Below are positions 36,373 through 49,010 of a stretch of DNA of 64,000 nucleotides, piece by piece. Within the stretch, counting starts at the first letter, position 1. Every line of letters starts with the position of its first letter. The stretch is from Nitrospirota bacterium (GTDB lineage: Bacteria; Nitrospirota; Thermodesulfovibrionia; Thermodesulfovibrionales; UBA6898), in assembly GCA_016235245.1 (NCBI GenBank), contig JACRLO010000012.1, positions 1-64,000 of the forward strand, read 5' to 3'. The notes under the pieces were generated by a model. That model ran no database searches, was not told the DNA's origin, and was given only the letters and a program-made list of their open reading frames with translations. A program made the position numbers and the translations under genes.

Positions 36373-36804
36373 ATGATATATATCGGGCTGGATGCAGGTT
36401 CTGTAGCGAGTAAGATCATTGTCCTTGATGAGAGGGGCAATATTGTCCTCAGCATCTATCAGCGTCATAAGGGAAGGCCGCTTCCTGTTTCGCTTCAGCT
36501 CCTCAAGAAGGCTGTTGATCAATTTTCAGGTAAAAAGACCTCTCTTTCCCTTACCGGTTCTGCCGGAAGATTAATCGGGACCATACTCGGCATTCCGCCG
36601 GTCAACGAAGTGGTTGCCCATGCCTATGCAACGCGGAAACTCTATCCCCGGATCAGAACGATCATCGAACTTGGAGGTGAGGACTCAAAACTTATCTTTC
36701 TCGATGAGTATTCCTCTTCAGCAAAGGACTTTGCGATGAACTCGGTCTGTGCAGCAGGCACCGGCTCATTCCTTGACCAGCAGGCAGAACGGCTCAACCT
36801 CTGA
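36373..36804 (+). pseudogene. CoA-dehydratase activase, fragment 1 of 3
   Basis: The 143 residues are the first ASKHA ATPase module of a long 2-hydroxyacyl-CoA dehydratase activase (BadF/BadG/BcrA/BcrD family): IGLDAGSVASKIIVLDE at the front, IELGGEDSKLI, and VCAAGTGSFLDQQAERL. The frame then stops at 36802-36804. Normally a short stretch follows before IAGRCSVFAKSDMIH; that second part is found in another frame from about 36805, so about 40 bases, not a multiple of three, appear to be missing. The fragment would end before the domain is complete. Confidence 0.85.
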
Positions 36805-37246
36805 AACCGCCCAGAATTGCGGGAAGATGCAGTGTCTTTGCGAAATCTGACATGATCCATCTCCAGCAGATCGCAACCCCGGTCAAAGACATTGCAGCCG
36901 GCCTCTGTTTTGCCGTTGCCCGCAACTTCAAAGGCTCAATCGCAAAGGGCCGGACCCTTGAGCCGCCCATTTCTTTCCAGGGTGGCGTTGCAGCAAATAA
37001 AGGAATGGTAAGGGCCTTCGGAGAGATCTTCAACATTGATAACTTATTCATTCCTGAGGAATTCGCGCTGATGGGCGCCATTGGGGCCGCATGGAAAGAT
37101 ATGGACTCAGCCAGGTTTCATACCTTTGACCTGGCTTTGATAGAAGATTTCATAAATGCCGATACGCCACAGGAAAAAGGATATTCACCCCTAATTGCAG
37201 TGGGCGGGGACTTCACGAAAAGACACCTTTCTTCAGAGATTGGTGC

Positions 37247-37316
37247 TTGGGGATCAGGGATCAGTAAAATGGAAAACACTATTATTACCAAACCCCAGAC
37301 CCCAGACCCCAACTCC
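37247..37316. repeat. Heptamer hairpin element in the activase gene
   Basis: The left arm has two GGGATCA units (37250-37263). After about 28 bases the right arm has ACCCCAG twice then ACCCCAA (37292-37312). The G-rich and C-rich arms can pair in part. The element is translated in frame as a low-complexity linker (SGISKM ... KPQTPDPNSS) between two activase domains. Confidence 0.75.
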
Positions 37317-38103
37317 TCAACTAAGGCCTATCTCGGAGTTGATATCGGATCTATCAGCACAAATCTGGCAGTAATCGATGAAAAATGCAATGTAGTAGCC
37401 AAACGTTACCTCATGACAGCGGGCAGGCCTATTGAAGCGGTGAAACAGGGGCTTGAAGAGATACGCAGGGAGATCGGAAACAGAATAGCCATATCAGGGG
37501 TAGGAACCACCGGCTCTGGCAGGTACATGATTGCCGATTATATCGGTGCCGATATCATTAAAAATGAGATTACCGCCCAGGCAACGGCAGCAGCCTTTAT
37601 TGACAGGGATGTTGACACCATCTTTGAGATAGGAGGTCAGGACTCGAAATATATATCGCTGAAAAATGGGGTAATTGTCGATTTCGAGATGAATAAGGCT
37701 TGCGCTGCAGGAACAGGCTCGTTCATAGAGGAACAGGCAGAGAAGCTGAATATCTCGGTTAAGGGAGAATTTCAGGAGATCGCTTTCTGCGCAAAGAATC
37801 CCTGCAGACTCGGTGAGCGCTGCACCGTCTTTATGGAAAACTCGCTTATGGCCAACCTCCAGAAGGGTTTGCCGAAAGAAGATCTGCTTTCGGGTCTTGC
37901 GTATTCAATCGTTCAAAACTACATCAACCGTGTTGTCTGTAAGCGTCCCATTGGAGACAGGATCTTTTTTCAGGGCGGGGTCGCCTTTAATAAGGCAGTA
38001 GTTGCCGCCTTCGAAAATTATCTTGGTAAAAAGGTCATTGTGCCTGAACATCATGACGTTACCGGTGCCATCGGTATGGCACTGATCGCAAGGGAACATA
38101 TGA

Positions 38104-38180
38104 GAAGTCAGAGGCCAGAAGTCAGAAGTCAGGAACAGGACAAAATATTGTACTCATCCAGTCCCCAACCCCCAATTCCC
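38104..38180. repeat. Composite heptamer element in the activase gene
   Basis: Five 7-base units at 38104-38138 (GAAGTCA, GAGGCCA, GAAGTCA twice, GGAACAG) are followed after about 20 bases by AGTCCCC, AACCCCC, AATTCCC at 38160-38180. It is translated in frame (RSQRPEVRSQEQ ... PQPPIPET) just before the Cys-rich segment of the activase. Confidence 0.75.
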
Positions 38181-39074
38181 GAAACCAGCTTTAAAGGCTT
38201 TGAAGCTTCACAGCGTCCATACGAAATTACTTCCTTTGAATGCAAGGGCTGTTCAAACATCTGCGAGATCAACCGCATTAACGTGCAGGGGGTAAAGGCT
38301 CATCTCTATTACGGCGGCAGATGCGAAAAATATGATGCAAGAAAAAAAACCGACAACTCTGATCTGCCTGACCTTTTCGCATTCAGGGATGAGATGCTCT
38401 GGCGGGCGCATCTGAAATACAGCACAGCTTATGGGGCAAAGAGTAACGAGCAGAAGAAAGACAGAATTTCGACAGCAACGCCCCACCGCCGATTACCCGT
38501 AAAGATCGGTATTCCCTTTATTTTCTATTTCCATGATCTTCTGCCCTATTGGACAACCCTCTTCTGGGAACTCGGTTTCGAGGTTGTAGTTTCCCCCGGG
38601 ACCAAAAGGAGCATTATTGACCTTGGCAATGAGACCATTCTTGCAGAGACCTGTTTCCCTGTCAAGGCTGCTCACGGCCATATTGCTCATCTGATACAGG
38701 AGCGGGTTGATGCTGTTGTCATTCCGAGTTTTATCGATCTGAATGCTGAACCTGATCGGGCAAACGCAGGCCTTGCCTGTCCTTATACCCAAACCATACC
38801 CTACCTGGCAAAAACCGCCTTCCCTGATACAACCTTTATCATGCCTGCGGTCAGATTGTCCAGGGGAAGAAACAACCTTAAACAGGAACTCCTGCGAAGC
38901 CTGAGGCAGTTCAATATCTCTTCTTCCAAACTGTCTTCGGCCATGGCTGCCGCAGACAAGATGCAGGAATTCTTTGTTCAAACGATTAAAGATAAGGGAA
39001 GAGAAGTCCTCGCCGGCCTGAACGAAAAAGCCGTTGTTATCGTCGGCAGGGCATAAAATTCCTTTGACAAGGGC

Positions 39075-40673
39075 ATGAATCTTGATATCCCGAAAAAGAT
39101 CGGCAATCTCGGCGTACAGACCATTCCGATGGATTTTCTGCCCCTTGAACAACAGGAGATACATAAAGAATGGCCCACTATGTATTGGCGAGCGGGGCAG
39201 CGGATTCTCAGCGCAGCCCGGATCATAGCCGTAACCCCTCTCCTTGATGCAATCTATATCGGCAACTTTTCCTGTGGCCCTGACTCTTTTATTTTGAAGT
39301 TTTTTGAAGAAGAGATGGCAGGGAAATCCTTTCTTCACCTTGAACTTGATGCGCACAGCGCTGATGCAGGGGCTGTAACGCGGTGTGAAGCTTTTCTCGA
39401 CAGTATCCGGAACCGTGATTCAGCAGTCATGCCTAAAAAGCGCATAAACCACATTCAGAAGATATCGCCATCTCACATGAGACACGACGCCTCCAGAACT
39501 GTCTATATCCCCCATATGTCTGACCATGCCTTTGCGATCGCAGCAGCCTTCTCCTATTGCGGGACAACCGCGGAAGTGCTCCCAGAGTCATCTCAGGAGT
39601 CTGTTGATCTTGGCAGGAGATTCGTATCAGGCAAGGAATGTTATCCCTGCGCCGTAACTACAGGGGATATGGTAAAGAAAGCCCTTGAGCCAGGCTTCGA
39701 TCCGGCAAGATCAGCTTTCTTTATGCCGTCGGGAACAGGCCCGTGCAGGTTCGGTCAGTATAACGTCTTCCAAAGGATGGTGATCCGCGATCTTGGCATG
39801 GAAGATCTCCCGGTCATTTCACCAAACCAGAATGAACATTTCTATAAACACCTTGGCCTCGTCGGACAAGGGTATGCAATGAGGATCTGGGAGGGAGTAG
39901 TTGCGATAAGCCTTCTCAGGAAATGCCTTCTTGAGACAAGGCCTTATGAAAAGGAAAAGGGAGTAACTGACAATATCTATCAGCAGAATCTGCTGCGACT
40001 ATGCGGAACACTGAGCGCAAGAACAGGGAATGTTGAGGAAGCGCTTAAAATGGCGCGACAGGAATTTGAGGGCTTATCCGTACAAAAAGAGGAAAGACCC
40101 CTCATCGGCATCGTGGGTGAGATATTTGTCCGCTCAAACAGGTTCTCCAATGAAATGCTTGTCAGGAAAATCGAAGCGCTCGGCGCAGAAGCCTATCTCA
40201 CCCCTGTTGACGAATGGATCAGCTACATTAATCTCATGGGGCTCCGCAAGGTCTTGATTAAAAAAGACCTGTCTGGTATGATTACTCTTCTGTCAAAGAG
40301 GTTCTTTCAAAAGAGGGTAGAGCATAGATTGGGAAAGCTTTTTTCAGGCTTTCTGCGCACGTTGCATGAACCTGACACACGTACGATCATGCGAAATGCG
40401 CACCCCTATATCCACCCGACCTTTGAGGGCGAGGCCATCCTGAGCATAGGAAAAAGCATTGACCTTGTCAGGAGAGGGGCTTCAGGCATTATCAATGCCA
40501 TGCCTTTTGGCTGTATGCCGGGCACAATAGTCAATGCACTTCTGCGGGGAGTCAAGAATAACCATAGGATCCCGTGTTTGAGCATTCCCTACGACGGGAC
40601 AGAGTCCCTGACGACCGAGATACAGCTTGAAGCATTCATTGACCAGGCAAAAGAATTTAGAAATAACCGATAG
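39075..40673 (+). pseudogene. CoA-dehydratase activase, fragment 3 of 3
   Basis: The 532-residue frame continues the protein of fragment 2 in the same reading frame after the TAA at 39054-39056 (seven codons between): NSFDKGMNLDIPKKIGNLGVQTIPMDFLPL. It holds the second half of the long activase, related to 2-hydroxyglutaryl-CoA dehydratase subunits, including SGKECYPCAVTTGDM, GTGPCRFGQYN and NAMPFGCMPGT. It has only a weak AAGGG next to its first ATG, so independent translation is uncertain. Together the three pieces span 1433 codons, the usual length of the intact fusion. Confidence 0.8.
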
Positions 40674-47186: not shown

Positions 47187-47831
47187 TCAGCGCGGACCGG
47201 TTGGCTTCCGCTGAACTGCAGTCTTGACGATCATTTCGGGAATCTCGAGCTTCTGTCCTTTGCGTTCAAGGGTTATCTTAACCTTAACGGCTGCAGGTAT
47301 TGTCTCTTTGTCTTTGGGGTCCCATTCGCTGATCCAGGTACCCTGCTTTTCCCCTTCCTTGATTTCGAAGAATTCAAACTCTATTTTTTTTACCTCAGGG
47401 TCAAGCAGATAGACTTTACCGTTACTGTCTTCAAACACATCTTCCAGAAAATATATTTTTTCCCGGATCTTCAGCCCTTCATTGTCTGCAAAGATCGAGA
47501 CCCATTTCAATCCTGCAAGGTCCTCCGGTCCTGCGCCGTGAGTATCAATGCTGGATGTCACAAAACCGACCCTGTCAGACTTGCCGTCGAAGAATATCTT
47601 CTTTTCGTCAGGCTTCTTCAAAAAAAAGGGATAGGTACCCCTGATAAGCCACGCAATCCTGTCTTCCAGAATACGCACTTTCTGCGTCACCTCGCTCCGC
47701 TCTGTGCCTTTTGACTGTGACATGTATCCAAGCCTCATGGCCGCACCAAGTACAACAAGGATCAGGATCGAGAGGGTTATCGCGATGAGCAGTTCGAGGA
47801 GCGTAAAGCCCCGGTTATCCTTCAGGAGCAT
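47187..47831 (-). CDS. gspJ: Type II secretion minor pseudopilin GspJ-like
   Basis: The 214-residue protein starts with a class III signal MLLKDNRG-FTLLELLIAITLSILILVVLGAAMRL, with Glu5 retained, and a beta-rich body that fits GspJ (long C-terminal domain, VSIFADNEGLKI and WDPKDKETIPAAVKVKITL). GspJ is part of the tip complex of the type II pseudopilus. It overlaps gspI by 17 bases and is last in the F-G-H-I-J series. It converges with metG. Confidence 0.85.
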   Translation of the reverse strand: MLLKDNRGFTLLELLIAITLSILILVVLGAAMRLGYMSQSKGTERSEVTQKVRILEDRIAWLIRGTYPFFLKKPDEKKIFFDGKSDRVGFVTSSIDTHGAGPEDLAGLKWVSIFADNEGLKIREKIYFLEDVFEDSNGKVYLLDPEVKKIEFEFFEIKEGEKQGTWISEWDPKDKETIPAAVKVKITLERKGQKLEIPEMIVKTAVQRKPTGPR

Positions 47832-48234
47832 AGACAGAACGGAGTCCTTTGATGGTCAGGTTTCCGGAAGGAGGCCAGGTGACGGTCACCACGATCTCAT
47901 AGAGCTTCGCCTTCTTGTCCTCCGATTCTGATTTAATCACCACTTGCCGGCTGACCGTATAGTATTTCTCATATTCTTTTGATCCTGATGCATCAGAAAG
48001 ATCAGAGAAGCTGTATGCTTCATCGAGCATGGAACGTGCATAGAAAATCGCTTTGGTGATGTCTTCGGCCTTCTTTGTTGAACGCAGAGCACGGGAATAG
48101 AGCTGAAACACGGCCACTACCGCAACAGCCATGATCGCGAGAGCGACCATAACCTCCATCAGACTAAAGCCGTTTGATTGAAGACGTGCCGAGGACCTGA
48201 TTGACCTCAATCGCATATTTCTGCCCTTTTTCAT
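47815..48234 (-). CDS. gspI: Type II secretion minor pseudopilin GspI-like
   Basis: The 139-residue protein has a class III signal with a long basic leader (LRSIRSSARLQSNG-FSLMEVMVALAIMAVAVVAVFQLYSRAL) and a short C-terminal domain, the shape of GspI, which starts the pseudopilus tip complex. Met-Glu at positions 4-5 after the cut is typical. Internal Met7 (48216) is an alternative start. It overlaps gspH by about 70 bases and gspJ by 17. Confidence 0.85.
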   Translation of the reverse strand: MKKGRNMRLRSIRSSARLQSNGFSLMEVMVALAIMAVAVVAVFQLYSRALRSTKKAEDITKAIFYARSMLDEAYSFSDLSDASGSKEYEKYYTVSRQVVIKSESEDKKAKLYEIVVTVTWPPSGNLTIKGLRSVYAPEG

Positions 48235-48607
48235 TCTGTATTTCTATCAGGCCTCCGGAGCTGTTCCCCTTGGGGAAAAAGAAGATATCTGCCCCGGTTA
48301 CGGGATATTTTTTCGGAACGATATGATTCTCTGACGGTTTTGAACCCGGATAATCAAGCCAGTACGTATTCGTCTCCTCGTTGAGCCTGAAAGCGACCTC
48401 TGTTCTGTCAAGAATGGCAGCCTCCCTGGCATGCCGTGTCGTCAGGTATATCCTGCGCGCCTCTTCCGTAAAGAGTGCCTTGTCGCGAAATCTCCCGACA
48501 GAAACTGCAACAATGGATACGATTATACCGACAATAAAGAGAACAACAAGGAGCTCAAGGAGCGTGAATCCACTCCTATTCCCAACTGTTGACGTCTTTA
48601 TTTTCAC
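48164..48607 (-). CDS. gspH: Type II secretion minor pseudopilin GspH-like
   Basis: The 147-residue protein begins at a GTG (48607; GGGGGAG just upstream) with a class III signal VKIKTSTVGNRSG-FTLLELLVVLFIVGIIVSIVAVSVGRF. The body contains a GspH-like sandwich (EARRIYLTTRHAREAAILDRTEVAFRLNEETNTYWLDYP). A longer open frame to 48838 overlaps gspG almost fully and is not needed. GspH is one of the minor pseudopilins and may guide substrates. Confidence 0.85.
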   Translation of the reverse strand: MKIKTSTVGNRSGFTLLELLVVLFIVGIIVSIVAVSVGRFRDKALFTEEARRIYLTTRHAREAAILDRTEVAFRLNEETNTYWLDYPGSKPSENHIVPKKYPVTGADIFFFPKGNSSGGLIEIQNEKGQKYAIEVNQVLGTSSIKRL

Positions 48608-49010
48608 CTTCTCCCCCTGCAGCACCATCAGCACCATAGGAAAACAGGTCATAGTCACCATGTGCCCCTGGTGCCTGGTACTGATAGGGTTTCTGCCAGG
48701 GATCGTTCGGCACCCCTTTTTTGAGATAGGAACCGTCCCAGCCCTGTGCACCGGGATTCGTGACCAGCGCATTGAGACCTTCTGAAGTAGTTGGGTATCT
48801 GCCGACATCAAGCCGGTAGCTGTCAAGGGCCTGGCCAAGCATCTCTATCTGGGTCCTGGCAGCAGACTGCTTGCCTTTCCCGACCTTGCCAAATATCTGG
48901 GGGCCGACAAGGGCTGCCAGCATCCCGAGGATGACCATAACGACCAGCAATTCTATGAGCGTAAAGCCTTTTCTGTTGTTAACGTGACCCTGTTCTTTTC
49001 TATTGTTCAT
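48576..49010 (-). CDS. gspG: Major pseudopilin GspG
   Basis: The 144-residue protein has the class III signal MNNRKEQGHVNNRKG-FTLIELLVVMVILGMLAALVGPQIFG and the highly conserved GspG body: LDSYRLDVGRYPTTSEGLNALV, YLKKGVPNDPWQKPYQYQAPG and YDLFSYGADG with the calcium-binding loop near the end. It forms the shaft of the type II secretion pseudopilus. The gene is preceded by a heptamer repeat between it and gspF. Confidence 0.95.
   Translation of the reverse strand: MNNRKEQGHVNNRKGFTLIELLVVMVILGMLAALVGPQIFGKVGKGKQSAARTQIEMLGQALDSYRLDVGRYPTTSEGLNALVTNPGAQGWDGSYLKKGVPNDPWQKPYQYQAPGAHGDYDLFSYGADGAAGGEGENKDVNSWE

Follow-up and report, generated by a model that had tools for sequence, protein, structure and literature searches.

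Among described enzymes, the closest counterparts of the gene considered here belong to the HAD/BCR/DCCP family, from which the facts about DCCP and the analogy with a reductase built of an activator and a catalytic part are drawn (PMC11971306). In the system of the double-cubane cluster protein and its reductase (DCCP/DCCP-R; 6eno, 7yyl), chain E of 7yyl is homologous to an activase domain of the gene, and DCCP is matched by its DUF2229 half with a Z of about 14. Here, however, the activases and the catalytic half form one chain, the genes are broken, identity in the catalytic half is about 12% and the type of cluster is putative. The 2-hydroxyacyl-CoA dehydratases (3o3m/3o3n) and the class I benzoyl-CoA reductases (8s02, 9gai) provide the top structural matches, with VIA Z values of 12-15 and 9-15% identity over residues 61-400 of a predicted model, but at the sequence level the catalytic half finds no PDB chain at E 0.01. 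Activase domain 2 is homologous to 4eht, 1hux, 7yyl chain E and 9gai and also matches MbdPQ; its relatives are activators of 2-hydroxyacyl-CoA dehydratases, a benzoyl-CoA reductase activase and the DCCP reductase. The full architecture, two BcrAD_BadFG domains plus DUF2229, is found in the long 'acyl-CoA dehydratase activase' fusions of Thermodesulfovibrionales/Nitrospirota, which have the same length (1380-1580 codons), the same domain order and 55-80% identity, and whose flanking genes are also alike in the aligned same-genus loci. Unlike these fusions, the copy described here is interrupted twice.

The window, the whole stretch of DNA that was analysed, comprises 64,000 nucleotides of contig C12 in genome G000; G002 and G003 are sister genomes of the same genus. 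Three frames between 36373 and 40673, with open reading frames at 36373-36804 (143 aa), 36852-39056 (734 aa) and 39075-40673 (532 aa), had been taken by the first-pass annotation for pieces of one protein. They align end to end with the single frame of 18 relatives as one protein of about 1430 codons, and jointly they match one uninterrupted frame in these relatives and in 80 loci from public genomes. Pfam and NCBIfam profiles give the domain order as two BcrAD_BadFG/TIGR00241 activases followed by DUF2229 (Table 1). Fragment 1 covers profile positions 1-153 of 271 in BcrAD_BadFG (PF01869; 2.8e-13, 50.5 bits), and fragment 2 lies above the curated cut-offs of both PF01869 (154 bits, cut-off 31.5) and TIGR00241 (203 bits, cut-off 125.4). 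DUF2229 (PF09989) is matched over profile positions 1-217 with 179 bits, not as a full open frame but with one TAA inside. No Rfam elements are found in the window between 30 and 48 kb. The interdomain linkers contain translated 7-bp tandem repeats (for example CCAGACC, AGAAGTC and ACTCATC), located at 37250-37264, 37288-37311 and 38103-38132 in the window and at 626-732, 1462-1593 and 2432-2468 in locus L042. They differ among sister species, and the reading frame is preserved even though the unit is no multiple of 3.

Table 1. Coordinates of the interrupted gene, its domains and conserved residues, and the other interrupted genes of the genome (window positions unless contig C4 of G000 is named)
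Feature	Position	Strand	Evidence or remark
Fragment 1: N-terminal part of activase (ASKHA) domain 1, closing in the frameshift-made TGA 36802-36804	36373..36804	+	Pfam BcrAD_BadFG, G002/G003 alignment
First cluster Cys, activase domain 1 (NSVCAAGTGS)	36748..36750	+	Conserved in alignment; putative ligand by comparison with HgdC-type activases
Deletion scar, net 37 bp relative to sisters; frameshift, 12 codons lost	36798..36808	+	Nucleotide and codon alignments
Second cluster Cys, activase domain 1 (GRCSVF)	36828..36830	+	Conserved in alignment; 5' of first ATG of fragment 2
Fragment 2: end of activase domain 1, all of activase domain 2, cysteine motif, first DUF2229/HAD-like lobe	36852..39056	+	
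Activase domain 2, complete	37332..38090	+	PF01869 (fragment 2 residues 161-413, 5.6e-45), TIGR00241 5.5e-60
DUF2229 domain with internal TAA	38502..39137	+	PF09989 1.5e-52
Invariant Cys, lobe 1 (ETCFPVK; A1 C146)	38652..38654	+	Orthologue alignment
Invariant Cys, lobe 1 (ACPYTQ; A1 C188)	38778..38780	+	Orthologue alignment
In-frame TAA at invariant Tyr (A1 Y280), start of lobe 2	39054..39056	+	Alignments; model m13beb93eea40
Fragment 3: lobe 2 of DUF2229/HAD-like domain and second HgdB-like domain; first ATG 39075	39057..40673	+	
Invariant Cys, lobe 2 (SCGPDSF; A1 C353)	39273..39275	+	TAA sits between C353 and C146/C188
DUF2229 gene, 317 aa, TAA at codon 84	G000 C4:161147-160197	-	G002 comparison
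HgdB-like gene, 363 aa, TAG at codon 88	G000 C4:160197-159109	-	G002 comparison
Glycosyltransferase, in-frame TGA at codon 112 relative to G002	G000 C4:130622-129720	-	

The structure of the C-terminal half was predicted for the intact G003 orthologue (mean pLDDT 81). The model has a HadB/DCCP-like fold, and the top 13 Foldseek matches all belong to the HAD/BCR/DCCP family, the best being 2-hydroxyisocaproyl-CoA dehydratase, the double-cubane cluster protein and class I benzoyl-CoA reductases. Each half of the catalytic part has three invariant cysteines (A1 numbering C146, C188 and C353; C475, C510 and C766), an arrangement compatible with a [4Fe-4S] or [8Fe-9S] cluster and ATP-dependent reduction. 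By analogy with the described systems, the intact protein would most likely act as a reductase driven by ATP, its activator and its catalytic part being joined in a single chain. Judged from its domains and predicted fold, the paired ATP-driven activase domains (archerase) would feed low-potential electrons to the HAD/BCR/DCCP-like Fe-S half of the same chain.

The first lesion, in the alignment with G002 and G003, is a net loss of 37 bases directly after 36801, beyond which the frame runs into TGA 36802-36804. An earlier estimate of about 40 bases lost with a frameshift near 36800 was close; of the 12-14 codons thought to be missing, the loss of codons stands but the exact size does not, being 12 codons plus the frameshift. 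Because of the deletion and frameshift, Cys 36748 and Cys 36828 are in different frames, and activase domain 1 does not have both cluster cysteines in one polypeptide. The first ATG of fragment 2 (36852) is downstream of both, and Cys 36828, lying upstream of this ATG, is therefore absent from fragment 2. The second lesion, TAA 39054-39056, replaces a Tyr present in 34 of 34 aligned orthologues. The first-pass annotation had placed this Tyr in a GRPYN motif, which reads GRAYN in close relatives, and had described fragments 2 and 3 as one frame except for the stop; the frame is indeed unbroken on both flanks. In the model the stop falls at residue 280, within the HAD-like match spanning 61-400 and between C188 and C353, the presumed cluster ligands.

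Sister genomes had been named as the comparison by which the split could be judged, and in every close relative examined the gene is whole; the window copy alone is broken, and it is broken twice. All 18 fully aligned relatives, from the genus, the family and the order, have one uninterrupted frame, as do all 80 orthologous loci from public genomes (72 complete, 8 running off a contig end). The frames of G002 and G003 have 1484 and 1500 codons and are about 80% identical to the window copy. Within the genus, the copies of G001-G005 and G007 are whole, and that of G006 is cut solely by contig ends. Apparent breakage in other genomes proved not to be recurrent, the splits in G011 and G014 being runs of N and those in G006 and G009 contig ends. 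In G014, a single-contig genome (L059, C1:287000-298000), the orthologue meets an N gap with other genes directly after it, which suggests a mis-joined scaffold.

Apart from the lesions, the gene looks like an intact one. Of the 488 columns that are invariant among the 18 intact copies, 3 differ in the window copy (fragment 1 has none, fragment 2 two and fragment 3 one), compared with 3 in G002 and 4 in G003. Two earlier judgements are supported: the rest is well preserved, with deviations at invariant columns matching those of intact sister copies, and decay is recent, there being no missense excess and all relatives examined being intact. Polarised changes show no acceleration on the window lineage. 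Since dS on the window branch is about 0.4, even a few per cent of the branch spent under neutrality should, by a hand estimate, have left more changes. The missing missense excess means that the lesions are either too young to show relaxed selection or not real. If they are real, they would be very young, because the remaining sequence is without decay.

Two further genes of this kind, which the first-pass annotation did not cover, are each broken by one nonsense codon on contig C4. They are a DUF2229 gene, the sole other one in G000, and an adjacent HgdB-like gene, which sit in a ketosynthase/LolA-like/activase cluster (L067) and are intact in sister species. The pair is a stand-alone version of the fused system, beside an intact activase. 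One nonsense codon is at an invariant Gln and the other at an invariant Glu. Among columns invariant in the other six, 1 of 269 and 5 of 168 deviate, the stop included, and the G000 copies otherwise show no decay beyond the sister range. In a DUF2229 search across the genus, each of the two G000 copies contains a TAA, and the matches in seven sister genomes are all stop-free. A third HgdB-like gene with an activase, on C1 (about 169-171 kb), is intact, so not every relative has been lost.

As a check on assembly quality, interruptions were counted genome-wide over 468 kb of G000 compared with syntenic G002, plus family controls; a second round of the comparison applied a tighter gene filter and took in a further 16 kb. 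Four of the 219 genes with a purifying signature between G002 and G000 are truly interrupted in G000. Three of the four (the window gene and the C4 pair) belong to this small family, the other being a glycosyltransferase. In the reverse direction the same 219 genes give no convincing interruption. A hypergeometric calculation by hand puts the chance that a family of 4 among about 216 genes supplies three of the four broken ones at about 1e-5, a post hoc value; if the C4 pair is treated as a single locus, the value is about 4e-4, again for a clustering noticed after the fact. Several 'broken' frames of the first G002-G000 comparison were antisense ORFs or over-long start choices and were set aside. 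On the contig of the window, an ABC ATPase profile extends over two frames at G000 C12:117962-118344(-), possibly another broken gene, and three overlapping minus-strand ORFs at 47187-48838(-) in the window might be one interrupted gene.

The preferred reading, to which we assign a probability of roughly 0.62, is a recent, coordinated pseudogenisation of an archerase-type reductase at two loci. The deletion would have destroyed activase domain 1, and the nonsense codon would have divided the catalytic half. On C4, the stand-alone version (DUF2229 and HgdB-like) would also have been inactivated by nonsense codons, its activase staying open. Since the window gene and the C4 pair both appear inactivated, the lineage would recently have lost the reductase function at each of these separate loci; the likeliest reason is that the function had become dispensable or disadvantageous. 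That cells really carry the lesions, that function is abolished and that one cause lies behind them all is our inference. A point against coordinated loss is that, with no missense excess, neutral decay would be expected to leave somewhat fewer than four lesions.

The strongest competitor, itself unlikely, is that an assembly or consensus error or a strain chimera made the deletion and the stops and that the living population carries an unbroken gene. False pseudogenes are a known and common product of assembly errors (PMC11017572), and the 41-contig assembly is apparently metagenome-derived, in which case consensus errors or strain mixing are possible; conservation of the rest of the gene like that of intact copies is also what is expected if nothing is broken. 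However, random errors should not hit three members of one family, the 183 control domain matches in G000 (138 Response_reg and 45 ABC) are all free of internal stops, and a 37-bp deletion is atypical for base-calling. If the lesions are artefacts after all, they are a warning that assemblies can yield even a cluster of stops in a single family.

Far less probable is that the pieces are translated separately and still cooperate as in naturally split relatives. The domains do exist as separate genes elsewhere, as on C4, and fragments 2 and 3, both well conserved, contain internal ATG codons. In the naturally separate C4 form, however, the gene borders are at domain ends, elsewhere than the lesions in the window, and the C4 genes are likewise cut within domains. 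The TAA falls inside one HAD-like fold of the model, parting C146 and C188 from C353, and domain 1 is left without its second cluster cysteine. Since both lesions part cysteines that should share one iron-sulphur cluster, it is unlikely that the pieces function separately. ATG 39075 shows no sign of a new start signal, the sequence upstream being that of the intact sisters save for single bases. The suggestion that the pieces are still made separately is not supported, fragment 2 starting past both cluster cysteines of domain 1 and the TAA lying in the middle of a HAD/DCCP-like domain.

An older, staged inactivation, with the deletion first, a shortened protein from 36852 that worked for a while and the TAA later, is equally improbable. 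Unrooted branch estimates seem to favour it, dN/dS being 0.41-0.44 in fragment 1 and 0.08-0.13 in the rest. But outgroup polarisation of the changes in fragment 1 places 11 columns on the ancestor of G002 and G003 and 1 column on the window lineage, which largely refutes it; the relaxed selection on fragment 1 is an artefact of unrooted polarisation, the changes being on the sister side. Stop-codon readthrough or suppression yielding a full-length protein would suit nonsense codons within otherwise constrained sequence but is scarcely credible, since no stop anticodon occurs among the 39 tRNAs of an incomplete set readable by ARAGORN, the stops differ in kind and replace Tyr, Glu and Gln, internal stops are missing from other genes (the Response_reg and ABC controls), and the frameshift would stay unbridged. 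A 38-bit tRNA-like match at L270 135-223(-) (G000:C38:116034-116122), not called by ARAGORN, has an apparent insertion near the anticodon arm.

Recent loss of the reductase at both loci is best read as an event of a known kind and not as a new kind of gene. An internal stop and a frame-shifting deletion in an otherwise alignable gene are shared with the nonsense and frameshift pseudogenes of bacteria, but here there is scant or no missense decay, and the lesions cluster in one functional family at two loci; this clustering is the mildly surprising part. More tentatively, and less likely than not, the fusion and the C4 operon may serve one shared function that was recently selected against, all DUF2229-type partners being knocked out quickly; an uncharacterised reductase family would then be tied to a niche change. 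If the lesions are real, G000 would be a natural double knock-out of a widely conserved, uncharacterised electron-activation system, caught before its sequence blurred, and the contrast with intact sister species could reveal the role of that system.
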